A stretch of 64,000 nt of DNA from the NCBI RefSeq assembly GCF_905475395.1, contig NC_058338.1:7392935-7456934 (forward strand), given 5' to 3'. Every line of letters begins with the position of its first letter. Within the stretch, counting starts at the first letter, position 1. Of this stretch, positions 446 through 48,614 are shown one piece after another. The position numbers and the translations under genes are program-made. The notes beneath the pieces are model-generated. The model ran no database searches, was not told where the DNA came from, and worked only from the letters and a program-made list of their open reading frames with translations. The DNA is from Chrysoperla carnea (taxonomy: Eukaryota; Arthropoda; Insecta; Neuroptera; Chrysopidae).

Positions 446-1072
446 ATAGAGTATATTGGGATGTCAAATCAAGAACGATTTGATCTCGTAAGAGACGGCT
501 CACTACGATATCTATTAAAAGATAAGAATTTTTCGGAAAAAACACTTGATCAACGATTATTCAATTTAAAAATGTAAGTGATCATTATAATTTTTGTCTA
601 TTTTCTTAATGCCAGAGATTCTGCTTTAAAACGGGCGTGACGTCCTAGTATGTGGCTTGTCAGACTTTTTGACATACCGTATGGTATTAATTACTTATAT
701 TTAGTATGGTATTACCATGGATATATACTATAATTACTACATACGTGGATATTACACCTGTAGTAAAAAGTACATTGAACTGTCACCAACTAACAGATTA
801 CATATTAATACGTCATCAACAGAGAGCGCCAAAAGGACTACGTTTAAACATCTCAAACTTATTTTCTATTTTAATAACTAGCCATTTCATTATGAGCTTA
901 CGAGCTAAGTTGATATATAACTATAAGCAAAATATGTTTTAATAATCGCTATTTTTTTGTTTACAGAAAATTTTATCTTCATGTTGCATTAATGAGTGTT
1001 ATAATTATTGCTTCTATGTTTATTATAAATTTAATGACTGTTAAATTTGTGTATACTGAGCGTCATATATAA
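446..1072 (+). CDS. Fatty acyl-CoA reductase FAR0, 3' end only (exons 8 and 9)
   Basis: These are the last two coding exons of an eighth FAR gene; the rest lies left of the window. Exon 446-573 aligns with exon 8 of the complete genes and carries the RYLLKDKNFSEKTLDQRL segment of the FAR C-terminal domain. It ends in phase 2 (AT|GTAAGT). Exon 967-1072 encodes the C-terminal membrane segment and ends with residues YTERHI and a TAA stop. The first exon starts with I-E-Y where the other copies have V-D-Y-S. No exon-7-like sequence is present in 1-445. The final four residues (ERHI) lack the KR pair that several sister copies keep. FAR identity is certain from the matches to exons 8 and 9 of the other copies; whether the missing part is intact is unknown. 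Confidence 0.85.
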
Positions 1073-1076
1073 TAAA
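1071..1076 (+). terminator. Poly(A) signal AATAAA of FAR0
   Basis: An AATAAA hexamer overlaps the FAR0 stop codon. FAR1, FAR4, FAR5, FAR6 and FAR7 also carry one at or just after the stop, which implies very short 3' UTRs. Confidence 0.55.
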
Positions 1077-1472
1077 TAACGAAAAAAGTTGTAATTTTAT
1101 TTGTACCCTAAAATCCTTACTATCAAGCTATATCCACCAAGTCATGGGACACCCTGTAGGTATACAGTATTTAAATTGTGTTGAATCATATAGTAAATTA
1201 TTAATGGATAGTATGCAAAACTGAGCCGCAGAAACGGTTTTGTTTAGTAAAAATAATTAAAATGGATTCTGTGCAATTTGGAAATGTGAAAATGAGTGTG
1301 AATGGGAATGTGTGAATATAATCTAACGGGATAGAATGTAAACTACAACTTTTCTGGAAATCGGCCATCTATCGACCTGGAAGTCGAAGTATTTTTAATT
1401 TAGCAAGGTATTCAACCATACACATTTTTATTTTTTTATTTTTGTATGAGTATTTAACTCATGAAGGTTATA

Positions 1473-1696
1473 AAGAAGGAGAACGATCGCAATAGAAAAT
1501 ATTGTCCCCAATATTTTGAAAAAATAAGTGAGGCGCTGGGATCGCTAAGTTGTATCATTAAATGCGGGCTGTTGTGCGCTAATAAACTACTTACCGACGA
1601 CAGCGCGGCTGGTGGTTGAAAATGAACTATAAATTCTCCAAATTTTCAGGGACAGGTGCGCTAATGCTTTAGTACATAGCGATCGTTCTCCTTCTT
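1473..1696. mobile_element. MITE with TIR AAGAAGGAGAACGATCGC
   Basis: An 18-bp terminal repeat at 1473 is mirrored exactly at 1679-1696 (GCGATCGTTCTCCTTCTT). The interior is non-coding and somewhat richer in GC than its surroundings. The size and structure fit a non-autonomous DNA transposon. Confidence 0.75.
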
Positions 1697-1798
1697 GATT
1701 TAACTAATGAAACCATAGATAAAATAATAGTATTACTATTAAAATATCTTTGAATGAAACTCAACCCAACGTATGTTTGTTGAACAGATCACTCTTAA

Positions 1799-3575: not shown

Positions 3576-3580
3576 ACTTT

Positions 3581-4678: not shown

Positions 4679-7600
4679 ATGATTTATAAAATGAGTCATA
4701 TTCAAGAAGAAAATAATAATATTGTTAAATCGAAAAAAAGTGTATTTGTGGAGAATGTTACGTTATCACAATTACCAAAGAATGCACCATCGATTTGTGA
4801 ATTTTATGCTGATCAAAATATCTTGATTACTGGCGGTACTGGTTTTATGGGCAAAGTTTTAATTGAGAAATTACTTCGTTCATGTCCAAAAATTAAGGGA
4901 ATTTATTTATTATTACGTTCGAAGAAAAATTATACGGATGAACAAAGATTAAGTAAACTCTTAGATATACCTGTAAGTTTTGATTTTATTTATCCCTAGT
5001 TATGAGAAGCCGGTTGAAAGTTTTCTTAAGGACATTCCCAAAAAATGACTGTTTTTTTTTTTTAAATTTCGTTTAACTTCCGATACCGAAGTAATAGTTG
5101 TACGACATTTTCAACGCTGTAGATATTTGCTGGTACCTACAGGGGTGAGATACCAAGGGGTGTGACATCCATTTTTTCATCTGTATTCATAAGAGCATCT
5201 TTTTCAACATGGGTCTTTCTCCGTGGGTCTTTCACCCTCAAAATTTCAGCATAGGCTTGTGGTCTATGAATGCAATAAATTATATATGTTTTGTGCCGAA
5301 CGTTCATCTTCAAAATTTGATAAGGTGTCTTTAAGTTGATAATGTAAATGAAAACATTCATTCCCCAAGTCTTCGTCAGGATAAAATTACTGACGAATTC
5401 ATTTTGCGTAGTTTTTCAACTCATTTGTATTGATTTCAGTAAAACTATCAAAAATATGAAAGTTAATGTAAAATGAGATTAATTTGACAGAACATACAAA
5501 TATTAAAAAACATTACATAAAATAAAGAAATTTTTCTCAAAATTTTTTAATATATCTTCTTTTTTTAAAAAATAATCCTAAGTATTTATCGATAAAGACA
5601 TTGATAATTATTTTAAAAGCCTATTGATCTATTAAAAAATTAATATTGCGGCAGATTAAAAAGTAAATTCAATCATTTGATAATTCAACAAATGAAAAAA
5701 ATCGTATTGCCCTTGAATTATTTCGCCCTAGACAATTGCCTCACGTGCCTAATCCTAAATTCAGCACTTACTCCTCAACTTTCTTACGCCCATCCCGTCA
5801 ATAATCGTATATTAAAAAAAAGAATTTTCCGCATTTTAAAAATTAATTTTTTTATTTTTATTTTCAGTTATTTGAAAGATTAAGAAACGAGTTCCCACAA
5901 TCATTATCAAAACTAAAAGTTATTAAAGGAGATGTTAGCGAAATAGAATTTGGATTATCTGGTTCTGATATGAAATTTATAATAAATGAAATAAACATTG
6001 TATTCCATGTGGCAGCGTCTGTTCGTTTTGATGATCCTTTGAGAGAAGCCATTTTAATTAATACACGAGGAACTAGAGAAATGTTAAGAATACTTAAACA
6101 AATGCAAAATTTAAAGGTAATTCTGCAAAGATTTTCGCATTGAAAGGCAAGTTTCTAAGGTATCGATTGACGAAATTGGTACTGATGTCATACTCAGTAA
6201 TTACTCGTTTTTATAGGCAAATTCGAACGTATTGCTTTTTCTGGGACAGAAAATAACTCTAGGAAAAGATTTTTATCCAAATCGGAAACAAAATAATTTT
6301 TCCGGTTTTTTGCAATTATTTTAATGGCCCTGCGGTCCTTGCTGAATGTTCCTTGCGGTCCTATAAACCGTTACAAAAAAATTCATTAAAATTGGTGCTG
6401 TTTCTCAAATATTCTACTATCGACACTTTTTCCGGCTTATTTACTGTATTAAAAATAGTAAAATAGGAAGAGAACCTTTATTTCTATTTTTTCTGCTATT
6501 AGGTTTTCTTGCATACGTCAACCACTTATTGTAATGTTGATAAGGACGTAGATGCTATTGAAGAAAAGGTTTACAAAGCAACAACCAATTGGGAAACTAT
6601 GATCAATGCAGCTGAAAATATGGATACAAATGTGCTCAATTTTCTGGAACAAAAGTATGTGGTTTGTAAAGTTTGCTTACGTTTACAAGCATGATTTAAA
6701 GAAATAATTTTTATAAATTTTTAGAATTTTAAATAAGTATCCAAATACGTATACATTTTCCAAAAATCTGTCTGAAGAACTTGTGTCTGAAAATTGTGGA
6801 GGTATACCAACTGTCATTTTTCGTCCAACAGTCGGTAAGATTATTTACAACTCTAATGTTCATGGTTTCGATACCCACAAAGATATAAGCTTGTTTTGTT
6901 TAGATTATTTTTTATTCAATGAATGAATTGTTTTAGTGGTTGGCTCAGACAAAGAACCAATACCTGGATGGGTAGATAGCTTTAATGGACCAATGGGCCT
7001 AGTTGCAGGAGTTCAAGTTGGTATACTTCATACAGTGTATATTGACGGTGATAAGAAGTTAGATTGGGTGCCTGTTGACGTAGCAATTAATGGAATGATA
7101 GTATCTGCATGGTATAAAGCGTTGGAACAATCGGAGCGTAATAAATGGTAATGTTTTCATTCTATGATCTTTTTTTCCGAGGAGGTATACGACTGGCCAA
7201 ATTGTACTTGCGTGAAACCCACTAAAGCACAGTTGAAAGGGCACTGGGACTCTTGAATGAACACAATCGTCGATTGGTAGTTAGTTTTAATAACATGCGT
7301 ATCTCTGATGATCCCACTTGTAGGGCCTATGTGAAGAACAATGAAACCTACATACATGTTATTTGCACCTCCAGGGCGATAGGTATAGAAGGTTTGGTTT
7401 GGAAACCTGGATCCCATAAATATTGGGAGCAATTCCAGTGCAGAAAATTTTTTTATCTCCAATTTCGATAAAACTCAGTATATAAGGTAATTTTGACCCA
7501 AAAAGTACAAAAATCGGGTGCATTTGTTGACTGGTCGAAAGGTACCCCTTAAAAAAATTCCAAAAAATCGAAAAATTTTTTTTAGCTCCAATTTCGATAA

Positions 7601-9819
7601 AACTCAGTATATAAGGTAATTTTGACCCAAAAAGTACAAAAATCGGGTGCATTTGTTGACTGGTCGAATAGTTTTTGAGATACTTACTAAAATCGATCCA
7701 AATATTGCGATATCTCAGAAACTCTGCATCCAATCATTAAATTAACCGGATTTTTATACTTTTTGGATCAAAATTACCCCATCCACCGAGTTTCATCAAA
7801 TTCTAGGACAAAAATATTTTTTCCGATTTTCTCAATTTTTTCAAAGGGGTACCCCTTAAAAAAATTCCAAAAAATCGAAAAATTTTTTTTAGCTCCAATT
7901 TCGATAAAACTCAGTATATAAGGTAATTTTGACCCAAAAAGTACGAAAATCGGGTGCATTTGTTGACTGGTTGGATAGTTTTTGAGATACGGACTAAAAT
8001 CGATCCAAATATTGCGATATCTCAGAAACTCTGCATCCAATCATTAAATTAACCGGATTTTTATACTTTTTGGATCAAAATTACCCCATCCACCGAGTTT
8101 CATCAAATTCCAAAACAAAATTTTTTTTTGCGATGTGGACGGTAGGAAATTGATGATGTAAATCGTCACAGCCTCTTTTTTCCATCGATTTCATGATATT
8201 ATTGAAGTATATTTTGGAAATTTTACTTTCCAATATCAACTGTTTAATCAATTTATATTTGCAGCCTAATAATCAATTCATCAACTGCTGACTTTGTAAA
8301 ATTTGAAAATAAATCGATGTTTGAAGATGGATTACGTATAGAAAATGCAAAAAATCCACCAAGTCAATTATTATGGTATCCATTTTGTTTTTATACGCCC
8401 AATAAATATTTTTATTGGTTTTATTTTGTAACACTACAATTAATTCCAGCAATATTTTTAAGTGTTTTATTGAAATTAGCTAATCAAAAATTGAAGTAAG
8501 TACAAATAATAATCTTAATTCTAACTAATATTATAAATGTTCTTGCCTAAACCGCTGAACCAATTTTGTTGACCTACGTTATTTAAATAGATATGATTTT
8601 GGGAAGAGACGTAGGCTAATTTTTGTAACGAAAATAAAACTTGAAGGGGGTAAAATAGGGGATGGCAGTTCTTATAGGCCATAACATAGTTTTGTATAGG
8701 CCATAACATCATATATGGCAAATAGTTCTGTTTAGTATTCATAAGTGGTACTATATGTATTGGATCATAGCTTCGATAATAGTTTCGTTAAATATTTTAG
8801 GTGTCGTTGTATATAAAAAAAAATTTTTTATCTGATAGTATTTTAAAGAGATTGATGAAAGCTCTTGATTGAAGATATTGATTGGAGGAGAAAAAATTGA
8901 AAACTCTCTATAAGCTTAGACCCAGGCGAGTAACGGCTCGTTAAGAAATATACCTATTCGATTTAAGGCAATAAAATTGATGCCTGTTTCCAAAGTCGTA
9001 GTACCTCTCTACCATCAATCTATAATTTCAAAAGAATTTTAGGTCTATCTTCTTATTTGAATATCGACCTCAATAAATATTAATCAAATTTAGGCTTACC
9101 TAATTAAAAATTATCTTTTAGATTATTTAAGTTATATCGACGAGTATTTTATTCAAATATGAAGCTTGCACCGTTCACATTAAATGAATTTAAATTTAAA
9201 AATGATAATTTTAAATCGTTGCATGCAATGTTGAAATTAGAAGACATGGACAAATTTTCAGTGAGTGAAAAAAATAAATTATTTGCAATTTAATTAAATA
9301 ATAATAACATTATGCTAATAATTTCATTTTAAAATAGGTGGATTATTCTACAATTGAAATCCAAGATCGATTTGCTACGTTAGTAGATGGTTCAGTGAAG
9401 TATCTATTAAAAGGCAAGAGCCATACAAAAGAAACACTGGATGAACGATTATCGAATTTTCAAATGTAAGATTACAAATTTGATTTATTTTTTCTTCGGC
9501 TATCTAGGATTATTTACTACAAATTGGAAAAAATAAGGCCGATTATTAATAATTTACCTAGCGTCAGAGATGGTTAGAGATATCGAAAAAAAAAAATTAT
9601 TAGAAAATGCTGCTTAGAATATTTTTATATTTTCCAACCATTTATCAATATTGCCTTAATACCATAAAAATTGAAAAACTTCGATTATCTAATAAAATTT
9701 TTTTTTTTTATTACAGGAAATTTTACCTGCATGTAGGGTTAATGTGTTTTTTAATGATCTGTTCCTTATTCATTATGAATTTTTGGGCTGGAAAATTTTT
9801 GTATAAACGTTACATTTAA
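4679..9819 (+). CDS. Fatty acyl-CoA reductase FAR1 (9 exons, 538 aa)
   Basis: The product should reduce long-chain acyl-CoA to fatty alcohol with NADPH on the ER membrane. Exons: 4679-4972, 5868-6116, 6503-6654, 6725-6834, 6937-7147, 8265-8495, 9122-9260, 9338-9465, 9717-9819. The joined frame is open. The Rossmann motif TGGTGFMG is at residues 51-58, HVAASVRFDDPL lies in exon 2, HTSTTY in exon 3, and the catalytic pair in YTFSK is Y241 and K245. The C-terminal FAR_C part has LLWYPF, a hydrophobic segment (~387-411), LYRRV, NDN and KYLLK motifs, then a C-terminal membrane segment (~510-530) and the tail KRYI. An in-frame ATG at 4691 matches the start of the sister genes better and may be the true start. 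The usual insect-FAR stretch after the ALE helix (a YN...S..NPITW type) is replaced by CLIINSSTADFV. Intron 5 carries a satellite. Confidence 0.93.
7447..8120. repeat. 307-bp tandem satellite in FAR1 intron 5
   Basis: Units begin near AGCTCCAATTTCGATAAAAC. The second and third copies start at 7584 and 7891 (period 307 bp). A first copy at about 7454 has lost roughly 175 bp internally. The copies are close to identical. Minus-strand open frames across the block repeat the same residues and are by-products of the tandem repeat. Confidence 0.85.
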
Positions 9820-11042: not shown

Positions 11043-11230
11043 ATTATATATTTTTGTAGTTGCGAGGTATTATAAAGCTAGAAATAACACATTATTAGAC
11101 TACAAAGCATGTATTTGATTTATATGTATGTCCCGTGCAATATAAACCAAAACAATATTTTACAATACTGTAGCGAAACAAACACTTTAAGAATATTACA
11201 TTTTGCATAACTTTTTTAGAACTTAAGTTA

Positions 11231-11392
11231 GGAAACTCAAATTGAATCACTCTTTATTCACGCTGTAAAATATGTATGTATTTAAATTAAATCAAAATTA
11301 TTTCGTATAAAATAAAATTTTAGAATATTTCATTAATTTAAAATCAATGAAATCATTTACAATTTTTGTTGATTGTTCTCGAGTGTTCCAAA
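11231..11392 (+). promoter_or_regulatory. FAR2 upstream/promoter block, duplicated at FAR3
   Basis: This block is nearly identical to 17640-17802 upstream of FAR3. It contains a TATAAAAT box at 11306-11313, about 87 bp before the start codon, and a CCAAAATG start context. Sharing the whole block implies that both genes inherited the same proximal control. The TATA box is a sequence match only; no initiator is certain. Confidence 0.45.
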
Positions 11393-14300
11393 ATGTTTGA
11401 TAAAAAAGAAAATAATCATGAAGAACATAATAATATTGTTAAATCAAAAAAGAAAATATTTATTGAAAAAGTAACTTTATCACAATTACCAAAGAATGCA
11501 CCATCGATTTGTGAATTTTATGCTGATCAAAATATCTTGATTACTGGTGGTACTGGTTTTATGGGCAAAGTTTTAATTGAGAAATTACTTCGTTCATGTC
11601 CAAAAATTAAAGGAATATATTTAATAATGCGTTCGAAGAAAAATTATACGGATGAACAAAGATTAAATAAAATGTTTAATATACCTGTAAGTAGTACCTT
11701 CCTGATTTATTAGTATTTATGGAACTTTTCAAGAAGTTAATGAAATGGAACTTTGTGTGTTCATATTTCGAAAATGTTTGCAAGATTAAATTAAAGATAA
11801 AATGTTAAAGCCAATCAAAAGGCTAATCTGTCGTTGCACCATGTTTTTTTTCTTCTTAGCGTTTACATGATGAACATCTCTCCATACAATTTTTACCAGG
11901 CAATATGAACCTGGTGATACAATCTTAAATTCACTGTTGTTTTTACTTTTAGTTATTCGATAAACTAAAAGAACAAAATCCAGAATTTTCCACAAAAATA
12001 CAAATAATTAAAGGAGATATCAGCGAACTACAATATGGTTTATCTGATTCTGATTTAGAATTTATAATAAATGAAATAAACATTGTATTCCATGTGGCAG
12101 CATCGATTCGTTTTGATGATCCTTTGGCGAAGGCAATTTTAATTAATACACGAGGAACTAGAGAAATGTTAAGAATACTTAAACAAATGAAGAATTTGAA
12201 GGTAATCAATTTATCAAAAATATTTAGACAGGCTTTGTTTATAAAATCTTCTACAGCAGAGCTTGAAAATTTTAGTCCCAATTTTTTGGCTAAGTTTAGC
12301 CCCAAGTTCTTAACGCTTAAAAATATTGATACTAGGAACAAAATTTTGGTATTGGTGTTCATAAAACTGAATTTGTCCATTTCCGGTTGTCTGCTTGTCT
12401 GCAGTCGTCTATTTCAGCAATTAACTCAGTCAATTATTTATTTTCACTTGATTTATTATTAGGTTTACTTGCATACATCAACCACTTATAGCCAGATTGA
12501 TAAGGACATAGATGCAATTGAAGAAAAGGCTTACAAAGCAACAACCAATTGGGAAACTATGATAAAAGCAGCTGAAAATATGGATGCTAATGTGCTCAAT
12601 TTTCTTGAAAAAAAGTATGTTGTTTGTAAACTTCGCTCCAATACCATCAGAAATAAAATTTAATGAATTCGTCTTATTTTAGAATTATAAATAAATTTCC
12701 AAATACATACAATTTTTCCAAAAATCTATCTGAAGAAATTGTGGCAGAAAATTGTGGAGATATTCCAACAGTTATTTTTCGTCCAACAGTCGGTAAACAT
12801 TTATGTATTATTTAAATTTATTTATCAAATTATGTCATGCCCTTACTTGCTATATAAAACCGTTTTTATAAATTTATCTTTTACGAATTCTCGTACTCGT
12901 GAGCCGTTGTCTTTAACGGAGCCCGATAAATTTTAGATAGCGAGATCATTTACTTCCCTAAAAAGAATTCACTAACAAACTTGGTTTATTTTAGTGGTTG
13001 GTTCAGAAAATGAACCAATACCTGGATGGGTGGATAGCTTTAATGGACCAATGAGCTTAATTACAGGAGTTCAAGTTGGCATACTTCATACAATCTTAAT
13101 TGACGGTACTAAGATTTTAGATTGGTTACCTGTGGACAGAGCAATAAATGGAATGATAGCATCTGCATGGTATAAAGCGTTGGAGCAAACTCAGAGGAAT
13201 AAATGGTAATGGATTACTTACTCTAATACATGATGTTTCAGAATTGCATGGCAGTATTTAAGATTCGTGTTTTCTGGATATAAATATAAATATCCAGAAA
13301 GGATATAAATTATGAAGGATCCTTAGCTCATAATGCCCAATTTTCAAATTTTTCTAAGCTGGTATTTTGGTAACATCATCCTGTATTAATAAATATTATT
13401 ATTGCGAGTTTTATTAGCTGATGTAAAACTATAATGCACAGATAAGTCATAGAAGATTTCGGCTATTTTACTAATACTAATATTTTTGTAGCTTAGTAAT
13501 TAATTCATCAACCAGTGACTTTATACCATTAAAAAATAGTATGATGTTTGATTTTGGACTAAAACAAATTCTCAAAAATCCACCAAGTCGATTAATATGG
13601 TATCCATTTTGTGTTGGTACGCCGAATAAATATTTGTATTGGTTTTATTTTGTAACACTTCACTTGATTCCAGCCATATTTTTAAGTGTTTTATTGAAAT
13701 TTAGTAATCAAAAATTAAAGTAAGCAAATATTCTTATTTATTAATTTTTATTCCTAAGTAGGATATATCATGATATATGTTTTTTGAAGCCTCAGATAGT
13801 TCTCAATTTTAGGTTTTTAGTGTTATTTTATCTCTAAAATTTATGCTGCATTTATACGAGTGAACCGGATTGAAAGTAGAACCAAATTCGTAGATTCGAT
13901 CCAAAAATCACTCGTTATAATAATTTTGTGGAAATGCAAAGTAAAAAAAAACAGTATTTTGTCGATCATCAAATGTTTCTTCACATCTTTATACTAACTC
14001 GTAGAAACTTTATAAACTTGTAGACTTTATTCGAGGTATTTGATGACAAATGGCCCAGTTTCGTAAAAATCCATGTTAAACATTGTAAAAATAGGAAAAA
14101 AGTTTGGTGAAAAAAATCGCAACATTTGTCTAGGGCTTAGTTCTTGGATTTATTCTTCTTAAACTGATTTTGATCCTCACTATTATCTAAAGCAATAAAC
14201 TTTCAGACCAGTTTATTTAGAAAATAGAATATTGGATAATTAGGGCTTTGACGATATCAACAGGTCAGTTTTCAATTTACAAAGACAATTATGTTTAACT

Positions 14301-15680
14301 CTTGTAGTCCTAGAAAAAAAATGTAGGAAGGTCGAGGCTACTCCAATTCAGATCAACATTCAATTTAGGGCTCTCAAAAAATTCTGTTGATTTACCAATG
14401 GTTAATCTTTTTTTTAGTTTATTTAAATTATATCGCCGAGTATTTTACTCAAATATGCAGCTTCTTCCGTACATGTTAAATGATTGGATATTCAAAAATG
14501 ATAATTTTAAATCTTTGCATGCAATAATGAAACTAGAAGACATAAACACATTTTCGGTGAGTCAAATTAAGAATATCTGAAATTGAATTACCTTAATTAC
14601 TTTGTGCAAAATTTCTAGGTTGATTATTCTAATTATGATATCAAAGAACAATTGAATAGCCAAATGGATGCCTCAGCTTTGTATTTATTAAAAGAAAAGA
14701 ACTTTTCAAAAACACTTCATAGGCGATTATTAAATTTAAAAATGTAAGTTAAAAATTTAGATTTTTATTTCTTATCCCTTAGACTTGTTGATGAAACCAA
14801 ATATAACTGTTGAGTATCGCAATGCAGTGTTTTTCAATCTTTTTCATGTCGCGACCTCTTACTTCTGCCCTTATTATTATACTAGCTGATACGGACATGC
14901 GTTGCTGTGCAGCGAAGTAATTCTATCAAATGTGTATATTAACTCGAATCTTAGTCAAAATAAGTAGCCAACTTCGGAATCAAACGGAATAAGCTGAATT
15001 TTTGTACAAACCTTTATTTTGATAGTAAAAAAGTTGTCTCAAAAGTCACATATGCGGTCACGCGTGCGCGTCCTAAGATATTCAAGGTTAAAGGTCCCGG
15101 AAATCAGTTTTTTTGTTAATATCGTTTTTTTTTGCCATCAATGGTTTTATTTATTGTAAATAGAGGACGCAGAAGATGGTGCGCACTTCCTATAAAAAGA
15201 CGAACGAAAAAGTTATTTACCAAATTTCGATCTGAGGCTTAATTTCGAGATAATTAACCAAATCAATTAATAAATTTATCCAATGACAGAGTAGTTATGC
15301 ATATAGGGATGTCTTTAGCGTTGCATTTAATTATCATATTATCAATCTCACTTTTTTAAATTTTTATTAAATCAAACCCAGTTACGATAAAGACATGGTT
15401 CCGTTTCTCATTGATCTGTCATTGGATACATTTATTAATTGTTTTGGTTAATTATCTCGAAAATTAGGTCTCAGATCGAAATAAGCTTGTTTAGGCAAGC
15501 AAGAGTTTTGCAGTCAATTCTAGAATACTTTGTAAAATAATAAAACTTGTTTTTGTTTTTTTTTTTTTCAGAAAATATTATATGCATATTGCTTTAATTG
15601 GTTTTTTAATTATAAGTTCATTATTCATTGCGAATCTGTTTGCTAGAAAAATTTTCTATGATCGTTCCACATATAATTAA
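11393..15680 (+). CDS. Fatty acyl-CoA reductase FAR2 (9 exons, 538 aa)
   Basis: Exons: 11393-11686, 11953-12201, 12463-12614, 12683-12792, 12995-13205, 13492-13719, 14418-14556, 14619-14743, 15572-15680. The start ATG (MFDKKENN) is in a CCAAAATG context; the longer upstream frame has only a TTG. The cofactor motif is at residues 51-58. The catalytic segment is YNFSK (Y241, K245), where every other copy has YTFSK; the catalytic residues are kept. Exon 1 differs from that of FAR3 at three residues only. The C-terminus is unusual: it ends KIFYDRSTYN, so the basic KR tail of FAR1, FAR3, FAR6 and FAR7 is gone. A family-A repeat abuts the acceptor of exon 3. Intron 8 holds a Helitron end and an inverted-repeat element. 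Confidence 0.93.
12293..12452 (+). repeat. Family A repeat fragment next to the FAR2 exon 3 acceptor
   Basis: This is an internally deleted copy of the 3581-4128 repeat. It starts AGCCCCAAGTTCTTAACGCTTA and ends TATTTATTTTCACTTG. Only 10 bp separate its end from the exon 3 boundary at 12463, so it supplies most of the sequence upstream of that splice acceptor. Confidence 0.7.
14882..14935 (-). mobile_element. Helitron 3' terminus, truncated
   Basis: On the minus strand it ends CACAGCAACGCATGTCC...AGCTAG before T, the same 3' end type as the Helitron at 2566-3123. The extent of the rest of the element in FAR2 intron 8 is unclear. Confidence 0.6.
15223..15482. mobile_element. Inverted-repeat element in FAR2 intron 8
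   Basis: AATTTCGATCTGAGGCTTAA...GAGATAATTAACCAAA at the left is mirrored by TTTGGTTAATTATCTCGAAA...CTCAGATCGAAAT at the right. A related copy lies in the same intron of FAR4 (28536-28782), and an end fragment lies at 20383-20412 in FAR3. It is non-coding. Confidence 0.7.
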
Positions 15681-31513: not shown

Positions 31514-34500
31514 ATGATTGATAATAAAAACGATATTTTTAAAGATAATAATCGTGTTAAATCGAAAAAGAAAGTATTTGTGGAGAATGTAACATTATCA
31601 CAATTATCAAAGGATGTACCATCAATTCGTGAATTTTATGCTGATCAAAATATTCTGGTTACTGGCGGCACTGGTTTTATGGGCAAAGTTTTAATTGAGA
31701 AATTACTTCGGTCATGTCCAAAAATTAAAGGAATCTATTTATTAATGCGTTCGAAGAAAAATTATACGGATGAACAAAGATTAAATAAAATTTTTAATAT
31801 ACCTGTAAGTTCGAAAATAATTCTAAAATTTTGTTCTTTTATCAATTTCATTATAAAAACAAGTGAAACGAAACAATTGACTGAGTTAGTTGTTGAAATA
31901 CTCTGTATAGAAAGTGTTGAATGTCAGTGCTTGAATTATTTTTAATAAATTAGAAAATTTTACACACATAACATCAAAGTTCTGATATTTACCACATGCT
32001 TATTTTTAGTTATTTGATAAATTAAAAGAAGAATGTCCAGAATCGTTATCAAAAGTAAAAATAATTAAAGGAGATATCACCGAACTAGAATATGGTTTAT
32101 CTGATTCTGATTTAGAATTTATAATAAATGAAATAAACATTGTATTCCATGCAGCAGCATCTGTTCGTTTTGATGATTCTTTGAAGGACGCCATTTTAAT
32201 TAATACCCGAGGAACCAATGAATTGTTAAAAATACTTAAACAAATGAAAAACTTAAAGGTAAAAATCACTTATCTTCAAAAGCATCGAATTCTTTTAGCT
32301 CTTATTTCTCCATTTTTATGTCGAAAAATCATGGATTATTTTTTTGTTTTATTGCGCGACCTCTAAAGCAAATTTTGAAATATTGAGTTAATGTTAAAAA
32401 AGTGCCGTTTTCCGGATTCGATTCCAGCCCTTTTGCGTAAACATTTCATGTGTTCAAAAACATAGAAACACCAAAAATCGCATTTCAATAGAAAGGAAAT
32501 AGGATAAAATAGACCGGAGAAAAACGACCAAAAAAATTAAAAAACTTATCAGAGAAAGTTGAAAATATGAGGTTACAGCGGTTTTGAGATTATTTCACTA
32601 TGTTTGGGGTTCCATAGCAGGCAAAGTCGATGTAGAAATCCTTAATAAAAAATTCTTTTTGTTTATTCGTCTCAATCCGATCAAAAGAAGCAGAGATATT
32701 CAAGGAAACGTCACCATAGAAAACAATGTTAAGATAAAATCAGAAGTCCGGTTCCGGAATCGGAAAACTCATTTACTGTATTTATTTCTGGAGGAAATAT
32801 AACCGTAGTAATAGAGCTCAGTTGATAATTTTTTTTTAATTATTAGGTTTACTTGCATACATCAACCACTTATTGTAATATCGATAAAGACGTGGATGCA
32901 ATCGAAGAAAAGGTTTACAAAGCGACAACCAATTGGGAAACTATGATAAAAGCAGCTGAAACTATGGATAAAAATGTGCTTAATTATCTTGAACAAAAGT
33001 ATGCTTTGTTTGTAAAGTTTGCTCAAATTATGAATTATAAATGAATTTAATAAATTCGTCATATTTTAGGATTTTAAATAAGTATCCAAATACGTATACA
33101 TTTTCCAAAAATTTAGCCGAAGAACTTGTGTCAGAAAATTGCGGAGATATACCAACAGTTATTTTTCGTCCAACAGTTGGTAAATATAATATTTCTAGAT
33201 TTATAATTTTACGTAGCTGACTGGAATATTAATAAAACTGATTTGTTTTAGTATGTTGCGCGGAAAATGAACCGATACCCGGCTGGATTGATAACTTTAA
33301 TGGACCAGTGGGCCTAATTGCAGGAGGTCAAGTGGGTATAATACATGTAGTTTATATAAACGGTGAAAAAAAGGTTGATTGGGTGCCCGTGGATCGAGCA
33401 ATAAAAGGAATGATAACATCAGCATGGTACAAGGCTTTAGAACAAACTGAACGTAATAAATGGTAATATTTTATCAGTCATATATCTCCTCCAAAACTAT
33501 AGGCTAATGTACTGTATTCGAAGATGGCATGGGAATGGTGCTATGGGTTTACAATCCTCTTACTCAGTCTGAGAAGTCAATAAATGTGTATAAAGCCTTA
33601 AAAACCGCGTAAAAACATGATTTTCTGGTATGAACAAGAATTAGGGGGCTGGGAAGTTGATATCCCTAAAAGTCACATCTTTGGCACTAATGCCACCTAT
33701 GGCACCTATCTTACATAAAAAGAGGATTTCTCCTTAAAATCCCTGTCAAGTTGCTATATATAAGCCCTGCTTTTATAACTCAATTTTTGCTGGAGTATTT
33801 GTGAACACCAGAGCTTATCGACAATGTCAGTTCTTATTAAAAAATTAAAAAATGAGAGAGGGGGGGGGGAATTTTCATGTATTTTCTTATATTTTCAATT
33901 CATTGTTTACACCGTTATAACAAAGTAAAAAACATAAATACTGCTTAAAAATGCTGTATTTAAGTGTAAAAAAATATTAAAAATACATTATAATTTTGAG
34001 ATATTTAAACGCAGTTTTTTGGCACTCTCTGTTGATGACGTATAAGTACGTGATCTGTCAATTGGTGACAGTTCAATGTATAATTTACACTTTTAAAAAA
34101 ATGAATTTACAACATAGAATTTACACTCGTTATTATTAAGTTTTCTAATAAAAAGCCGTAGAATAGTATAATTTAATGAAATACCATATAAAATGTAAGT
34201 AATTAATATCATACAGTATTTCAACAAATTTGACAAACCCGTACTATGATGTCACGTCCGTATAAATGTTTGAATTTCCGTTTTAAAAATTTTGAAATGC
34301 CCTAACTGAATTTGTACTTTGATTAATTAATTTTAAGTAATTAAAAAGATATTAATTACTAAAATAATGGTTTAGTTGAAATGTTCAGTCATTAAAGTTA
34401 CGGAAGAAAAATATTTGAACCAAATTCAAATTTCATGAATATTCCCTATTGCTAAAGCTACTTGTTATGTCTGCTGTATTCTGTTTTCATTTGGAATTTT

Positions 34501-36155
34501 CACTAAAAACCATAATTGTTTGATTGTAGCCTTGTAATTAATACATCAACCAGAGACTTTATAGACTTTAACAATAGTGTGATATTTGATTTTGGATTAA
34601 AAACAGCAATCCAGAATAATCCATCTGGCAAACTATTATGGTATCCATTTTGTTTTTATACGCCAAATAAATATGTGTATTGGTTTTATTTTGTAACACT
34701 GCACTTGATTCCAGCAATATTTTTAAGTGTTTTATTAAAATTAGCGGGTCAAAGATTAAGGTAAGCAAAATTTAAATATTTTTAGGGCATAAGGGATACC
34801 CAAAATGGCTATGGTATAGACCACAGTTTAACTTTTAACTCATTTATCTCTACGTTTATATTATTAACCCGTCAGCACTTGCGTCAAGCGTTCGGTAATC
34901 TTTAGTAGCATGATGAGAGATTTGCTCACGTGTTCTACACATACGTCAAATATTCTTTAACTTTGTAAATTATAACCTATATATAATATAACAAATTTCG
35001 TGACACGGTGTTTGTATTTGAACTCCTCCGAAACGGCTCGACCGATTTTAATGAAATGTTTTTGTATGTTCGGTAGGTATGACAATAGGCCGTAAATTTA
35101 TTTTTCACCCTTCTACACACATAGCAGTCAAACTTATAAGACCCCTTTTTTTAGTTCGGGTGTTAAAAATAAATTGTATTTATGTTTTAAATCGAGCGTG
35201 GTCAAAATGCAAATAACGCGAGTGCTGACGGGTTCATGTTAGTTCGAAATTGGAAAGAAAAAGTTTAAAATGCTCCAATCTTGACCTATCTACAGAATAA
35301 TAGTTTTTTGAAAAGATTCATTTTATTTTCTTACTTTAGTTTATTTAAATTATATCGAAAAGTATTTTATTCAAATATGAAACTTGCACCGTTTACGTTA
35401 AATGGATGGATATTTGAAAATGATAATTTTAAATCGTTACATGCAATATTGAAACCAGAAGATGTCGAAACATTTACGGTGAGTAAATATAAAATGTAGA
35501 AATTATTTTGAAGTATTATGCTTATTTATTTTTTTCACATTTATAGGTGGATTATTCTGATTTTGTACTTGAAAAACGATTTCATGAGGTATTAGATGGC
35601 GTATCAATGTACCTTGTAAAAGAGAAAAACTTTCAAGAAACACTTGATAAACGATTGTACAATTTAAAAATGTAAGAAGGCGTTATATTTAATTTTTTAT
35701 TTTTATGGCCCTTTAAAAAACGATCAATAAAATCAAAAAGAATACTTTGATGGCGTACCAAACGGCAAATGATTAGTAAAAATCTATCGATATTGCCGTT
35801 GACAACTTTTGGCTAAAGCATTTTTCCGTTGTTAGCGTGTTTTCTTTCGATAAGATACAATAATGACATATTTTTAAGACTTTTTTTTTTACCTATTACC
35901 TACTGTTTAGGGTCTTAATTGACTATAAAGGAAACCAAAAGAACTAGCCCCAATTTGATATCAGAAAATGATGTCCGGCTTGATTTTCGACAGATTTTTG
36001 TTGTGTTAAATAAAAACTATACTTTTTATTCCTTTTTTTTTTACAGCAAGTTTTATCTGCATCTTTTGGTAATGGGATTTTTAGCCATCAGTTCATTATT
36101 CATTCTGAAAATGTTTGCTGGAAAATATATTTACAAACGTTACATGAACATCTAA
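31514..36155 (+). CDS. Fatty acyl-CoA reductase FAR5 (9 exons, 538 aa)
   Basis: Exons: 31514-31804, 32010-32258, 32847-32998, 33070-33179, 33252-33462, 34530-34760, 35340-35478, 35547-35671, 36047-36155. The ATG (MIDNKNDIFKD) follows TTTCAAA; the longer upstream frame has a GTG, not an ATG. The cofactor motif is at 50-57 (preceded by ILV, not ILI) and the catalytic pair is Y240 and K244. Exon 5 has no internal long ATG frame but is intact: CCAENEPIPGWIDNFNGPVG, then GGQVGIIHVVYING. Exon 2 has FHAAASVRFDDSLK where the others have FHVAAS. Residues at the exon 6-7 junction (RLSLFKLYRKV) also differ. The tail is KRYMNI, two residues longer than the KRxx form. Intron 2 (32259-32846) contains an unexplained segment (see findings), and intron 6 a TIR element. 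Confidence 0.93.
31855..31930 (-). repeat. Family A repeat end in FAR5 intron 1
   Basis: Reading on the minus strand it gives the right end of the family (TCAACAACTAACTCAGTCAA, then TTGTTTCGTTTCACTTG). It is a short solo fragment. Confidence 0.55.
34866..35234. mobile_element. TIR element carrying Helitron-like cargo, FAR5 intron 6
   Basis: The terminal repeats AACCCGTCAGCAC (34866) and GTGCTGACGGGTT (35222-35234) are perfect. The left arm ends TTTGTAAATTATAAC near 34978. Next comes a Helitron-type 5' end (CTATATATAATATAAC...CGTGACACGGTGTTTGT, then CCGAAACGGCTCGACCGATT). The right arm resumes with TTATGTTTTAAATCGAGC. The total is about 369 bp. Confidence 0.7.
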
Positions 36156-38473: not shown

Positions 38474-41400
38474 ATGTATGAAAATATCGTTAAGCCAACG
38501 AAGAAAAAGTTTGTGGAGAAAGTAACTCTATCACAATTATCACAGAATGTACCATCAATTAGTGAATTTTATGCTGATCAAAACATTTTGATTACTGGCG
38601 GTACTGGTTTTATGGGCAAAGTTTTAATTGAGAAACTACTTCGTTCATGTCCAAAAATTAAGGGCATTTATTTATTATTGCGCTCAAAGAAAAATTATAC
38701 GGATCAACAAAGATTAAATAAAATCTTCGATATAGCTGTAAGTTTTCATGATATTCCTAGTTATTGATAGTTATTAGGGATTCAAATTTGTGATAAAGTG
38801 TAAGACTGAGAAATATTTTTCCACATATTTTAGTCAGTTTATACTTGACTTGTTACCTGACATGCACTACTTTCTTCCAGTTTCACAATATACGTATTTC
38901 AATACCACTTTCTTTTAGTTATTTGACAGAGTTAAAGAAGAATGTCCAGAATCGTTCTCAAAAGTAAAAATAATTAAAGGAGATATCAGCAAACTAGAAT
39001 ATGGTTTATCTGATTCTGATTTAGAATTTATAATAAATGAAATAAACATTGTATTCCATGTGGCAGCATCTGTTCGTTTTGATGATCCTTTAAAGGATGC
39101 CATTTTAATTAATACCCGAGGAACCAGGGAAATGTTAAAAATACTTAAACAAATGCAAAATTTAAAGGTAATAAATTAAACATATATATCGAATCTTCCG
39201 TAAAATTGACTGCTCCCCATTAACACATTGCAAGATTTAACCCGTTGTGTATCAATTTTATCCAAACAGGATCACTAATAATTAAACTTGACGTCATAGA
39301 AAGTGCTATTAACGCCCACAAATGATAATCCATTTTCTTCTTTAAGATAAATCCGTTGCAAGTAGTATATTTCTGCTCAGTGACTCATTTCGGTTTGACG
39401 CAGCCGCTATTTTTGAGGACTTATGTTTGATACATTAATAGACCAAAACAAGGAACAGTATAATTATAAAGCAGTTATTTTTTCTGGATATAGTTGATTA
39501 CTGCATTGATCGCGAATTATAAAGTTTTTTCTGTGATTAGGTTTTCGTGTACACGTCAACCACTTATTGTAATGTCGATAAAGACGTGGATGAAATTGAG
39601 GAAAAGGTTTATAAGGCAACAACGGATTGGAAAACAATGATAAAAGCAGCTGAAAATATGGATGAAAATGTACTCAATTTTCTTGAACAAAAGTATGTCA
39701 TTTGTAAATTTTGCGCTCAAAGCTAGCATTATAAATCAATTTAATGAATTCGTTTAATTTTAGAATTTTAAATAAGTATCCAAATACGTATACTTTTTCC
39801 AAAAATCTTGCTGAAGAAATTCTATTTGAAAGTTGTGAAGATATTCCAACAGTTATTTTTCGTCCTACAGTCGGTAAAATTTTAGTTACTATTTTCTTTC
39901 TTTAATGTTCATGGACTTGGCCCTAGAGGAACCATCCGATTAGACCAATAAAAGATTGAATGTTGAACTGGCTACTTAGAAAAATGATTTTTTCATTAAT
40001 CATTTAAGGCTGCTCTTTCCAGAAGCGCTCAAAAGAAGAATATTCTATCCGGACTTCCCAGAAGGCTAACATGGAAAAGCATGTTCTAGCTTCACTCTAA
40101 TCTGAGCTCGAATTTGATATATAAAGTCTTGCAATTTATTTTATGACTCCAAATGCTTCTGAAACATTTTTTACAATACAATATTTATGTTTTGCCTTAG
40201 TGGTTGGTTCGGAGAGGGAACCAATGCCTGGATGGGTTGATAACTTCAATGGACCTATGGGTCTAGTTACAGGAGTTCAGACTGGCGTACTTCGTACAGT
40301 GTTAATTGACGGTGCAAAAAAGGTAGATTGGGTTCCTGTTGACAGAGCTATAAATGGAATAATATCATCAGCATGGTATAAGGCTTTAGAACAGACTGAT
40401 CGTAATAATTGGTAATATTTTATAACCAGTAACTATAATTTCATGTTTTCCCAAACAGCGAATAGTATAGAAGAAGGATGGTATCGTAAATTTCAGTAGC
40501 TGCTAACAGTAGGCGTATGGGTCGTGTTGCACGAAATAAGTTTGAGTATCTTTATGCTTCTTGGGCGGTTAAATCAAAATTCAGTTAGTCTTACAAAAAA
40601 AAGTACTTTAATGTTTTTTGTTGGAAATTTCCTAATATACAAACTTGATAATTCCTATTTTTACAATAACAGTGACCGTTTATTTTGTGTTATTTGATTC
40701 CGATTTGGGATTTTGTTTAGAACCACAAATAAAAGGTTCATGCAAAAATCCTGCTTTCCGGAAATTTTAATCAATCAAAAAACAAATATATACTCGCGAA
40801 AAAATAACTGTCTCGAAGCAACCTAGCCAACGTGTATTAGGTACTTATTTAATAATTTAATGTTTGTAGCTTGGTAATTAACTCATCAACCAGTGATTTT
40901 ATACAATTTAATAATAGCGTATTGTTTGATCCTGGTACTGAGATAGCTAAAAGAAATCCACCGAATCAACTATTATGGTATCCATTTTGTTTCCACACGT
41001 CAAATAAATATTTATATTGGTTTTACTTTGTAACACTGCACTTGATTCCAGCAATATTTTTAAGTGTTTTATTGAAAATAAGTAATCAGAGATTAAAGTA
41101 AGCATAAATTGAGTATTAAAATTTTAAAATAAAAAACAGTTAAGTATTTTTGGTCGGAAATTGTTTCTTGGCGCAGCCGGTAGGATCAAGATTCAATCCA
41201 AGATGCCTATGACATGCCTTTCTTTGGCTTGAAAGAACTATCTCATTAAAGGCTGGCAGAGGAATTCTGTCGCGTACTGCAAACAGCGTTAACGCTTTTG
41301 TTTTTACGTATGTCAACTACACAAAATAGATTCATTCCCATCAAACTTGTTTCAATTATAAGTTCTGTTCTAGAAAGCAAAACCGACTTTCGAAACTTTT

Positions 41401-42697
41401 TTCAATTCTTGTAAATAAAATTTTTTTTAGATTATTTAAGTTATATCGCCGAATATATTTTGCAAATATGAAGCTTGCACCGTTTACATTAAATGAATTT
41501 AAATTTAAAAATGATAATTTTAAATCTTTGCAAGCAATATTGAAACCAGAAGATGTTGATAAGTTCTCGGTGAGTATATTAAAACAAAACAGATAGTTTG
41601 AAATACGTATAAATGAAACAATTTTATTTAAAATTTATAGGTGGATTATTCTGGGGTTGTAGTTTTGGATCATTTTGAATTGCAAATAGATGGCATAATA
41701 CGGTATCTATTAAAAGATAAGAATTATTCAAAAGATACATTTGATAAACGAGTGTTTAATTTAAAAATGTAAGATTTTATTTTGATCTACATAAATTATA
41801 TTCTATAATTCTTCCATGATGCAGTGACCATGATCAGTAAATAATCTTTTTTTTAAGCAGATGTTCTCTCTGTATACGGCGTCCACTTTAAAAAGTGCAT
41901 TCGTTGTATGAGCGAACTATTTTCTCACCACGGCCATTATTATAATAACAGCCGATTCGTTAGCGAGGAAAATGATTCCAAACTCGTTACTACTCGGGGG
42001 TTTTTGGGGTCGAATATTGTAACAGAACACGAATATTGTAACAGAATTGATATCCGAGGTACTTGGTGGCGAAGGTGAACGGTATTCGTGGAGGACACGG
42101 GAAATTTGTTAAATAATTAGTCCAAACTTCTCCTAAATAATTAATTGCCTTTATATAAATCTAGCAAATGTAAGCAATACTCGCGTATTGAATCAAAAAT
42201 TGATGCCAGTTTCCCAGAATTTTCTTGGACGATAGTTGAAACGTAATGGTCTTGATTTAAGTCACTGCGTCATATAAAGTTTTTAAATGAGTGCGTGATG
42301 TAAAAGAACCCCGCAACATACGTATGGAAAATAGCATTTGGCTGTCGAACATACATTTTGAAAATTTGAGAAATGTTAGTGTTATAGTTCTTGAAGAGTG
42401 TAGAACAAAAGTTGCTTTGGTCATAAACCTAAAAAATTTTCGATTTATTTAACTCTAGTTTACCTGTTTTATCACAAATTCTAATTGAAAAATCAAATTT
42501 GTAGAATGTTTGGCCGAAATCTATTTCCCTAAGCATTGTACCGAATCCTTTGTTGATATATTTAAAAAAAATACTAATTTATCTTTATTTACAGAAAATT
42601 TTTTCTGCATGTTGCGGTAATTAGTCTTTTACTTATTGGTTCTATGTTCGTTTTGAATCGTTATGTTGGAAAATTTGTGTACAAACGATACTTTTAG
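38474..42697 (+). CDS. Fatty acyl-CoA reductase FAR6 (9 exons, 527 aa)
   Basis: Exons: 38474-38737, 38919-39167, 39541-39692, 39764-39873, 40201-40411, 40870-41097, 41431-41569, 41641-41768, 42595-42697. It has the shortest N-terminus of the array: MYENIVKPTKKKF starts ten residues later than FAR1-4, so the cofactor motif is at 41-48 and the catalytic pair at Y231 and K235. The ATG follows TTACAAA. Exon 1 ends DIA instead of the usual NIP or DIP. Exon 3 has VFVYTSTTY in place of VFLHTSTTY or VYLHTSTTY. Exon 7 has LYRRIYFANMK. The tail is YKRYF. Introns 1 and 8 align with those of FAR7. Confidence 0.93.
41168..41290 (+). repeat. SINE-like dispersed repeat, FAR6 intron 6
   Basis: TTGGCGCAGCCGGTAGGATC resembles a tRNA A-box region, and AGATTCAATCC resembles a B box. 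Similarity continues to GAGGAATTCTGTCGCGTACT. The 3' two thirds recur at 44660-44795 and the first 20 bp at 47658-47677 in the same intron of FAR7. A tRNA origin is a guess from the boxes. Confidence 0.45.
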
Positions 42698-42703
42698 ATA
42701 ACG

Positions 42704-44659: not shown

Positions 44660-44795
44660 CGTGCATATTACTAACTTCCAAGGACAAGACTCAATCCAAG
44701 AGGTCTATAGGAAATGTCTTTCTTTGATTTGAGAGAAAAATCTCATTACAGAGGTAGCAGAGGAATTCTGTAACGTACTGCAGACACCAGTATAA
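44660..44795 (+). repeat. SINE-like repeat, 5'-truncated copy
   Basis: Similarity to 41190-41290 starts at GACTCAATCCAAGA and runs through GAAATGTCTTTCTTTGATTT to GAATTCTGTAACGTACTGCA. Confidence 0.45.
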
Positions 44796-45390
44796 ACTTT
44801 TTTAACACTATTGTTTTGAGTCACCTTATATTTTGCATCAATTCATCAAAAATTGCATCAATTTCAATACAATTGTTCTTAAATATTAAAAAAAAAAACT
44901 CGTGAGCAGCAGAGCTCCATCAATAAAGTCATATTTTCCCCTAGTTATTCAATTATTTAATTTTTTCTACTGAAATGGAATTTTGATATTTTCATGTTTT
45001 TGAACGTATAAAACATTAACATCAAATTGCTGAAAGAAAAGCTGGAGTTTCGCCACTATCAAAAGGCTGTTTTGAAGCCCCGTGAAAATAGCATAATTGG
45101 ATTCGTTTGTTCATCATTTGTCCACATTTATACACCCAAAATTTTTATCCTTTAATTTTCAGGAAATTCATATTTTCTTCAGCTCCTCCAAATGCGAATT
45201 TTCACAAAGTGAGAATGTCATTCGTTAGACAACGGTTTGTCCACCCAAAACAGTGCGTAAGACTACATTTTCGGAGAAAATATAACTAAATTAAATATTG
45301 CAAATAAAAAAAAATATATTTTAATAATCGTGGTTTAAAGCACAAGATTTATTCTTTGTATGGTTCTGTGTTCTGTGTCGAGTTCTCAAA

Positions 45391-48300
45391 ATGTTTGTAA
45401 ATTATATTGTTGAAGAAAATATCGTTAAGCCAAAGAAGAAAGTGTTTGTGGAGAAAGTAACTCTATCACAGTTATCAGAGGATGTACCATCAATTAGTGA
45501 ATTTTATGCTGATCAAAACATTTTGATAACTGGCGGTACTGGTTTTATGGGAAAAGTTTTAATTGAGAAATTACTTCGTTCATGTCCAAAAATTAAAGGA
45601 ATTTATTTAATAATGCGTTCGAAAAAAAATTATACGGATGAACAAAGATTAAATAAAATGTTTAATATACCTGTAAGTGTTAAACAAATATACTGATAGT
45701 TATTAGGGGTTCAAATTTGTGATAAAGTGTATAATCCTGGGAAATGTTTTTCCACATTTTGACCTGGCATGCAATCCTTCATTCTCCTTTCACAATATAC
45801 GTAATCAATTCCACTTTCTTTTAGTTATTTGACAGATTAAAAGTTGAATATCCAGAATCATTATCAAAAGTAAAAATAATTAAAGGAGATATCAGTGAAC
45901 TAGAATATGGTTTATCTGATTCTGATTTGGAATTTATAATAAATGAAATAAATATTGTATTCCATGTGGCAGCATCTGTTCGTTTCGATGATTCTTTGAA
46001 GGATGCCATTTTAATTAATACACGAGGAACTAGAGAAATGTTAAGGATACTTAAACAAATGCAACATTTAAAGGTAATCAATTAAAAAAATTTATATCGA
46101 ACGTTCCGTGAAATTGACTGCTCCCCGTTAAAATACTGAATGATTTAACCCGTTGTGCATCAATGTTATCCAGATTGAATATAACGGTTTACTTCCTTGA
46201 TCGCAAATTATAAAGTTCTTTCTGTGACTAGGTTTTCCTGTATACGTCAACCACTTATTGTAATATCGATAAAGACGTGGACGCAATCGAAGAAAAGGTT
46301 TATGAGGCGGCAACGAATTGGAAAACTATGATTAAAGCGGCTGAAAATATGGATGAAAATGTGCTCAATTTTCTTGAACAAAAGTATGTTGTTTGTAAAG
46401 TTTGCTCAAAGTTAGCATTTTAAGTGAATTTAATGAATTCGTTTAATTTTAGAATTTTAAATAAGTTTCCGAATACGTATACATTTTCAAAAAATCTTGC
46501 TGAAGAACTTCTCTCTGAAAGTTGTCAAGATATACCAAAAGTTATATTTCGTCCTACAGTCGGTAAATTTTTAAGTTATAATTATTTTTGTTTTTTTAAA
46601 TTTTGCTAGACTTGCGGGTGTAAGAAAATCTGCGTAGGTACATTTTTGATAGAAAAGTCTATTCTAGCTTCAGCTTAAATTGAATTTAAATTTCATATAC
46701 CAACAAAGGTCAAGCAATTTACTTTATGACTCTAAACTAAATGCTTATGAAAGATTTTTTAACAGTATAAAATAGCTATATCTTGTCTTAGTGATTGTTT
46801 CGGAGAAGGAACCAATGCCTGGCTGGGTTGATAACTACAATGGACCAATGGGTCTAATTAGTGGAGTTCAGACTGGCGTACTACATACAATTTTCGTAGA
46901 CGGTAATGCTAAGTTAGATTGGGTGCCTGTTGACAGAGCTATAAATGGAATGATAGCATCAGCATGGTACAAGGCTTTAGAACAAACTGATCGTAATCAA
47001 TGGTAATATTATATGATTTGTAAACATAAATTCATGCTCATTGACGAATCTAAAAACGCTTCCCATGTTTTCACAAAGTGTAGAAAAAGGATCGGTATTT
47101 TCCGTTTGGAAATCTAAAATATGGTACCTTTATGCTTTTTGGGCAGCTGAATCAAAATTCAGAAGTTATCAAGATCAAAACTTATCCAGTCTTTTGTTTT
47201 GAAGAATTTCGTTTCGCTTGAATCTTTCAAAAAATTCACCTGAGGATACAAATTATAGGAAGCTTGTGAAAATATATATGAATACCACGAAAAATTACTG
47301 TCTAAAAGTACCTTTCAAAGGAAGTGTTACTTAAAGTATTTTTTTTTTTTAGCTTAGTAATTAACTCATCAACCAGTGATTTTATAAATTTTAATAATAG
47401 CGTATTATTTGATCTTGGTGTGACTAAAATAATAAAAAATCCACCGAATCAACTATTATGGTATCCATTTTGTTTCCCTACTTCGAATAAATATTTATAT
47501 TGGTTTTATTTTGTAACACTGCACCTAATTCCAGCAATATTTTTAAGTGTTTTATTGAAAATAAGTAATCAGAGATTAAAGTAAGTAAAAATTGTTAATT
47601 AAATAATCTTAAATTAAAAATAATCAGATTATATTTAGGTAAAATCACGAAAAAATTCTTGGCGCAGCCGGTAGGAGAGTAACTTTTAGCAAAAAATAAA
47701 TATTATTAAAAAATAATCAATAATAATTACCCTTTCATAAAAAATCGATTAAAAAATAATTTATTTTTGAATAAAAATAGTTTTTTTTAATGGAAATAAT
47801 TTTTGTTTTTAAATTTTCAAAAGTAACATTGTTTTAGTTTATTTAAATTATATCGCCAAGTATTTTATGCAAATATGAAGCTTGCACCGTTCACGCTAAA
47901 TGAGTGGACATTTAAAAATGATAATTTTAAATCGTTGCAAGCATTATTGAAACCAGAAGATATGGATAAGTTCTCGGTAAGTATTAAAACTAAAACAGAT
48001 AATTAGAAATATTTATAATTGAATAAAATTTATTTAAAATTTATAGGTAGATTATTCTGGGTTAACAATTCCGAAACTATTTGAAACTCAAATAGAGGGG
48101 ACAAAACGGTATCTATTAAAAGAAAATAACTTTTCAGAAAAAGCATTTCATAAACGAATGGTTAATTTAAAAAAGTAAGATGTTTTTAAGTATAGTTATT
48201 GAAATAAATATCACGATACTCGAAATAAAATCATTTTATTTCGAGTATCGTATCGCATCATACATACGTATGGAAAATAGCTTTCGTCTGTCGAACATAC

Positions 48301-48614
48301 TTTTTGAAAATTTGAGAAATGTTAGCTCTGAGAAAAGTAAAATAGGAGTTCCTATGGTCAGAAACCCAAAAAATTTTCAATTTATTTTTTTATTTTTACT
48401 AGTTTAACTGTTTTATCACAAATTCTATCTAAAAAAAGCTATTTTCCATAAGCATAATCCTTTGTTGATATTAACTAATAAAAAAATATATCGATTTTTC
48501 TTCATTTACAGAAAATTTTTTCAGCATGTCCTGTTAATAAGTCTTTTAATTATCGGTTCTCTTTTCGTCATTAATCGTTATACTGAAAGTTTTTTGTATA
48601 AACGTTACTTTTAG
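45391..48614 (+). CDS. Fatty acyl-CoA reductase FAR7 (9 exons, 533 aa)
   Basis: Exons: 45391-45672, 45825-46073, 46232-46383, 46453-46562, 46792-47002, 47353-47580, 47838-47976, 48047-48174, 48512-48614. This is the last and most compact gene of the array. The ATG (MFVNYIVEEN) follows TTCTCAAA. The cofactor motif is at 47-54 and the catalytic pair is Y237 and K241. Exon 5 opens VIVSEKEPMPGWVDNYNGPM. The junction of exons 8 and 9 gives NLKKKFFQHV: the split codon is AAA here, whereas the other copies have ATG, ATA or ATC. The C-terminal segment has NRYTESFLYKRYF, ending in the KRxx form. It shares intron 1 and intron 8 sequence with FAR6. No FAR sequence is found to its right. Confidence 0.93.

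Follow-up and report, generated by a model that had tools for sequence, protein, structure and literature searches.

A tandem array of fatty acyl-CoA reductase (FAR) genes occupies most of a 64,000-nucleotide stretch of Chrysoperla carnea DNA, hereafter the window (NC_058338.1; C2:7392935-7456934 of the 559 Mb genome; gene copies are given in window coordinates unless prefixed by C and a number). Gene models built by exon search and splicing place eight FAR genes in the order O-A-B-C-D-E-F-G, all on the + strand and head to tail, spanning 51.7 kb inside a 100.7 Mb contig (Table 1). Copies A-G lie complete within the window (4679-48614), each with nine exons, GT/AG borders at 8/8 introns, intron phases 0,0,2,1,2,2,0,2, exons 2, 3, 4, 5 and 7 of 249, 152, 110, 211 and 139 bp, no internal stop, and a product of 527-538 aa; all of this agrees, in 7/7 copies, with the first-pass annotation, whose outer limits also proved exact, exon 8 of copy O beginning at 446 and the stop codon of copy G ending at 48614. 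The gene that it described as a partial eighth copy merely crosses the window edge: completed from the adjoining 10 kb on the left, copy O (C2:7389847-7394006) is an intact gene of 539 aa with GT/AG at 8/8 introns and the same five exon lengths, which rules out a relic and brings the count to eight. All eight are thus neighbouring paralogues on one strand with common lengths of exons 2, 3, 4, 5 and 7. The leftward extension proposed earlier as a way to find further copies completed copy O, but tblastn with the seven window proteins gave no additional FAR beyond it in the 40 kb left flank, nor any in the 20 kb right of the window. Inside the window, no match was found right of copy G by PF07993 search, exon-1 search or window self-comparison, and, among 10 open frames examined as candidates for other genes (7 right of the array), 0 scored above the cut-off of any Pfam family.

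Membership of all eight genes in the FAR family is confirmed by their products. PF07993 (NAD_binding_4) covers positions 1-257 of 258 in the spliced products (1-256 in E) and PF03015 (Sterile) positions 1-93 of 93 (2-92 in A), in both cases in 8/8, the latter at 57-77 bits against a cut-off of 35.4. Every copy carries TGGTGFMG, and YTFSK (YNFSK in B) as a YxxxK motif at residue 231-242; we take these to be the cofactor motif (TGxTGF) and the active site of FARs. A hydrophobic C-terminal stretch (Kyte-Doolittle 19-residue mean 2.2-2.5) is likewise present in 8/8 copies, and the solved structure closest to copy C is a fatty acyl-CoA reductase (7eoz, E 4.3e-34). Judged from family and sequence, each copy would encode a membrane-anchored, NADPH-dependent enzyme converting fatty acyl-CoA to fatty alcohol.

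The copies are well diverged from one another. Among the 28 pairs, protein identity is 69.0-85.4% (15-31% different), synonymous divergence (dS) is 0.17-0.58, with B/C the closest pair at 0.17, and dN/dS, the ratio of nonsynonymous to synonymous divergence, is 0.29-0.52. Between-copy matches in the window self-comparison are mostly exon-sized, introns being mostly not alignable; B/C and F/G also match across introns, as do a few further pairs, such as A/E, C/D and C/G, in the short introns 2-4. That the repeats are assembly artefacts of fewer genes, one of the cases named by the first-pass annotation as undoing its reading, or else unmerged haplotypes, is excluded by the protein differences and the mostly non-aligning introns, even B/C being at dS 0.17; nothing in its favour was found, and its probability is negligible. 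In a DNA tree of the eight genes, the neighbours B+C and F+G each group with 100% support as closest relatives within the array, pairings that recur in regional trees, and the array would have grown by tandem duplication.

A one-ratio codon model gives an omega of 0.307 (log-likelihood -7174.3 versus -7323.7 at omega 1, twice the difference being ~299), and neutral simulation at 0.05-0.25 substitutions per site predicts 3.7-13.7 stops per copy, against 0 observed in the eight. Since omega lies well below 1 and intact copies are unexpected under neutral decay, the array is clearly kept by purifying selection, as the first-pass annotation had suggested from the intactness of its genes. That most copies are instead recent relics, intact through youth rather than selection, is very improbable: pairwise dN/dS does reach 0.52, and decay is visible elsewhere in the family (an exon-2 donor lost at C3:5.969 Mb, a TAG within the exon-1 match at C3:5.834 Mb), but array dS and the lack of stops speak against youth, and 95% intervals of omega from codon bootstrap are all <0.7 in the 7 pairs tested. 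Equal exon lengths, by themselves, are weak evidence of selection, because they are shared with a distant cluster: the minus strand of C2:70153000-70231500 carries a second, more diverged tandem cluster of ~7 FAR genes, whose introns, where tested, sit at the same positions. There, a scan of exons 2-5 and 7 restricted to near-expected sizes recovered exons 2, 4 and 7 of, again, 249, 110 and 139 bp (in 6, 6 and 7 genes, respectively), and exon 3 and exon 5 differ slightly in length from those of the array.

Constraint is unevenly distributed along the genes. Exons 1-4, comprising the cofactor-binding part and YxxxK, are the least changed and exons 8-9 the most, the mean dN/dS being 0.17 in exons 3-4, the minimum, and reaching its highest values in exon 8 (0.76) and exon 9 (0.63). 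Synonymous divergence over the eight copies is also lower in exons 1-2 (pS 0.233) than in exons 3-9 (0.373), a contrast reached in 0/5000 label permutations and in 28/523 rotations of the labels along the gene, so that it is real for codons and borderline as a regional effect only; at fourfold sites the values are 0.189 (35 sites) for exons 1-2 and 0.301 (43 sites) for the rest. Copies B and C share a 5' tract running from upstream sequence through exon 1, intron 1 and exon 2 (Table 1). Exon identity between the two falls from 95.4% in the 5' part to 89.0% in the 3' part, and non-exon identity from 95.0% to 62.4%, a pattern probably left by conversion, or by a recent exchange, limited to the 5' end. 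F/G lacks such a conserved tract, with non-exon identity of 64.9% in the 5' part versus 67.9% in the 3' part, and, for the eight copies as a whole, the case that regional conversion lowered dS in exons 1-2 is no more than suggestive. No paper on FAR genes and gene conversion in insects was found in the open literature searched.

These patterns bear on what the copies are kept for. The first-pass annotation suggested selection for dosage or product diversity and named waxes, cuticular hydrocarbons and pheromones as the ends that insect FARs serve; for this array, all of these would be candidate roles. The common core motifs and structure, the lower synonymous divergence of exons 1-2 and the homogenised-looking 5' tract of B/C are what would be expected if the genes supplied dosage, with near-identical activity in the same cells and neutral sequence differences; such an explanation is nonetheless unlikely, given the extent of protein divergence, the mostly unalignable introns and 3' halves that are not homogenised in either B/C or F/G. 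The extent to which the proteins differ, above all in exons 8-9, leans instead towards diversification over pure dosage. With change smallest in exons 1-4 and greatest in exons 8-9, a difference between copies in preferred chain length, in anchoring or in the tissue where they are expressed is more probable than a plain gain in dosage.

Table 1 Location of the FAR genes, the shared 5' tract and dispersed exon-1 matches (exons listed in order; window coordinates unless prefixed by C)
Feature	Coordinates	Strand	Product or evidence
Copy O	exon 8 446-573, exon 9 967-1072; exons 1-7 left of window from C2:7389847	+	539 aa, intact; Pfam
Copy A	4679-4972, 5868-6116, 6503-6654, 6725-6834, 6937-7147, 8265-8495, 9122-9260, 9338-9465, 9717-9819	+	538 aa; gene model, Pfam
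Copy B	11393-11686, 11953-12201, 12463-12614, 12683-12792, 12995-13205, 13492-13719, 14418-14556, 14619-14743, 15572-15680	+	538 aa; gene model, Pfam
Copy C	17803-18096, 18371-18619, 18755-18906, 18976-19085, 19288-19498, 20041-20268, 21055-21193, 21254-21381, 21632-21734	+	537 aa; gene model, Pfam
Copy D	24073-24366, 25253-25501, 25652-25803, 25865-25974, 26342-26552, 27102-27332, 28139-28277, 28360-28487, 28853-28949	+	536 aa; gene model, Pfam
Copy E	31514-31804, 32010-32258, 32847-32998, 33070-33179, 33252-33462, 34530-34760, 35340-35478, 35547-35671, 36047-36155	+	538 aa; gene model, Pfam
Copy F	38474-38737, 38919-39167, 39541-39692, 39764-39873, 40201-40411, 40870-41097, 41431-41569, 41641-41768, 42595-42697	+	527 aa; gene model, Pfam
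Copy G	45391-45672, 45825-46073, 46232-46383, 46453-46562, 46792-47002, 47353-47580, 47838-47976, 48047-48174, 48512-48614	+	533 aa; gene model, Pfam
5' tract of B	11220-12245	+	94.3% identical to the C tract
5' tract of C, partner of the B tract	17630-18671	+	window self-comparison and B/C identity comparison
Other 18 strong exon-1 matches	C3:5.83-5.98 Mb (10), C4:68.33 (2), C4:58.03 (1), C6:14.72 (2), C5:64.99 (1), C2:47.66-47.67 (2)		

Beyond the array, the genome holds a larger, dispersed birth-and-death FAR family to which the eight genes belong. A genome-wide search with the NAD_binding_4 profile returned at least 145 matches (126/168 candidates scored), and a search with exon 1 of copy G yielded 54 (57/57 candidates scored), some of them short, a match not being proof of a whole gene. 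Nearly half (26/54) cover at least 84/94 residues at no less than 74% identity, eight of these being the array copies and the other 18 lying elsewhere (Table 1). Thirteen strand-specific targets from the dispersed regions were scanned for exons 2-8, with exons 6-8 partly beyond the stretches covered, and 11/13 show exons 2-5 with GT/AG. At C3:5.969 Mb, where the exon-2 donor is lost, exons 3-5 were recovered, and from the C6 + strand gene exon 2 alone, followed by a transposon and then the end of the stretch. Retrocopying is ruled out as the source of the dispersed genes because their introns are retained.

A DNA tree built from exons 2-5 (C3:5.969 without exon 2) unites F+G with 11/12 dispersed genes in one group (100/99), C2:47.66 falling outside, and a single clade of array genes is rejected by the approximately unbiased (AU) test (p 0.003; 0.002 without exon 2). 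With the C2:70 Mb cluster as root and C3:5.969 omitted, G and then F adjoin 10 dispersed rows in a protein tree (supports 94/95, 96/88, 97/91), and C4:58.03 (exons 2-4 only) and C2:47.66 lie outside the array members. The grouping of 11/12 dispersed genes with F+G suggests that an F/G-like gene probably seeded four other chromosomes; on these trees the array is likely the older, and the F/G-like gene would later have been copied, introns included, to C3, C4, C5 and C6 and then amplified, chiefly on C3.

Taken together, the most probable reading, drawn from sequence comparison, is that the locus is a true array of eight FAR genes that look functional, formed by tandem duplication, held by purifying selection and set within a larger family in which an F/G-like gene probably gave rise to dispersed members. 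Three observations weigh against it. Pairwise dN/dS values of 0.3-0.5 are moderate, as could also be expected of copies under partly relaxed selection; the high ratios of exons 8-9 fit loosened constraint as well as diversification; and the AU test on the protein tree leaves one clade of array genes unrejected (p 0.066), which makes the direction of spread less sure, so that spread from dispersed genes into the array keeps some small probability.

The dispersed genes show a further peculiarity in their arrangement. Four head-to-head pairs of exon 1 were found (C6:14.715/14.718, C4:68.329/68.331, C3:5.843/5.844 and C3:5.880/5.881), and 8/15 full exon-1 matches of dispersed F/G-like genes stand in such inverted pairs. 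The C4 pair has a central palindrome of 3.9 kb (98.6%), and its two genes are identical in exon 2 and 88.6-90.9% identical in exons 3-5. The C4 and C6 units have 6.2 kb in common at 95%, up to a border that is the end of a DNA-transposon-like repeat. An intact element of this kind, with 1,579-bp inverted ends that are 99.94% identical (end sequence TCCGTATACTTAGCAG...), lies at C6:14718906-14722806 in intron 2 of one C6 FAR gene; it is flanked on both sides by the 9-bp repeat GCAACACAC, read by eye as a target duplication, and beyond it the sequence resumes as a 100% match over 194 bp to a C4 gene. This intact copy is an independent recent insertion in a FAR gene. An older copy of the same element end stands at the outer border common to the C4 and C6 units. 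As the end was not found in the one C3 unit examined with its flanks or in the window, carriage of FAR units by the element stays only a possibility. A more novel scenario, possible but less likely than not, is that the right end of the array (F/G) set off a burst of copying across the genome, introns included, to four other chromosomes, and that the 5' parts of inverted pairs are kept alike by conversion as their 3' halves diverge, a transposon with long inverted ends perhaps helping. If true, a shared NADPH-binding 5' cassette joined to diversifying 3' halves would constitute a conversion-driven route to new FARs.

Several other features were recorded. An open frame at 27529-28047, in intron 6 of copy D, presumably resembles a retrotransposon tail; its one Pfam match was below threshold and to a different family, and an inverted piece related to it lies at 55446-55628. 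Related repeats of ~316 bp occur at 30508-31185, just upstream of copy E, and at 59694-60414 and 62990-63999 in the right flank, and an inverted repeat of 465 bp (97.8% identical) at 54273-54737 and 56070-56532. In searches for exact sixfold repeats, TTAGG was present and TCAGG absent. Outside the window, C1:138886126-138887466 holds an uninterrupted gene for a bacterial cytochrome oxidase subunit I of 532 aa, with 95% protein identity to Rickettsia tamurae, this Rickettsia DNA being either inserted in chromosome C1 or joined by assembly.

The array is a well-resolved further example of known insect FAR expansions. In bumble bees and stingless bees, a massive FAR-A expansion is described with transposable elements enriched and many incomplete copies, most FAR-A genes of B. 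terrestris being on short unlinked scaffolds (PMC6361591). The C. carnea family is similarly a large, lineage-specific and partly clustered expansion with transposable elements nearby, but in contrast with the many incomplete FARs predicted in the bees (PMC6361591) it includes a single ordered array in which none of the eight genes is broken. Drosophila FARs follow birth-and-death evolution with 14-21 genes per genome, most fast-evolving members being expressed in oenocytes, and CG30427 combines single exons 1-2 with three tandem cassettes of exons 3-6 (PMC6546124). Duplication, loss and fast-evolving 'unstable' members are common to both systems, and the CG30427 cassettes, as described there, parallel the slower 5' and faster 3' halves of the array genes, whereas here 54 exon-1 matches and whole-gene copies are found rather than 14-21 FARs (PMC6546124). 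FARs are also discussed in wax-making scale insects and mealybugs (PMC6743827, PMC9582030); for the present array, a part in wax would be a candidate role only. What is new here are the 54 genome-wide exon-1 matches and the grouping of 11/12 dispersed genes with F/G, and the less ordinary part is the exchange limited to the 5' half together with the inverted pairs. The locus offers a chromosome-level case of FAR family growth: the array is ordered and intact, the dispersed copies resemble one another more closely and group with F and G, and exchange shows signs of being restricted to the 5' half. All this makes it a good place to test product diversification versus dosage as the driver.

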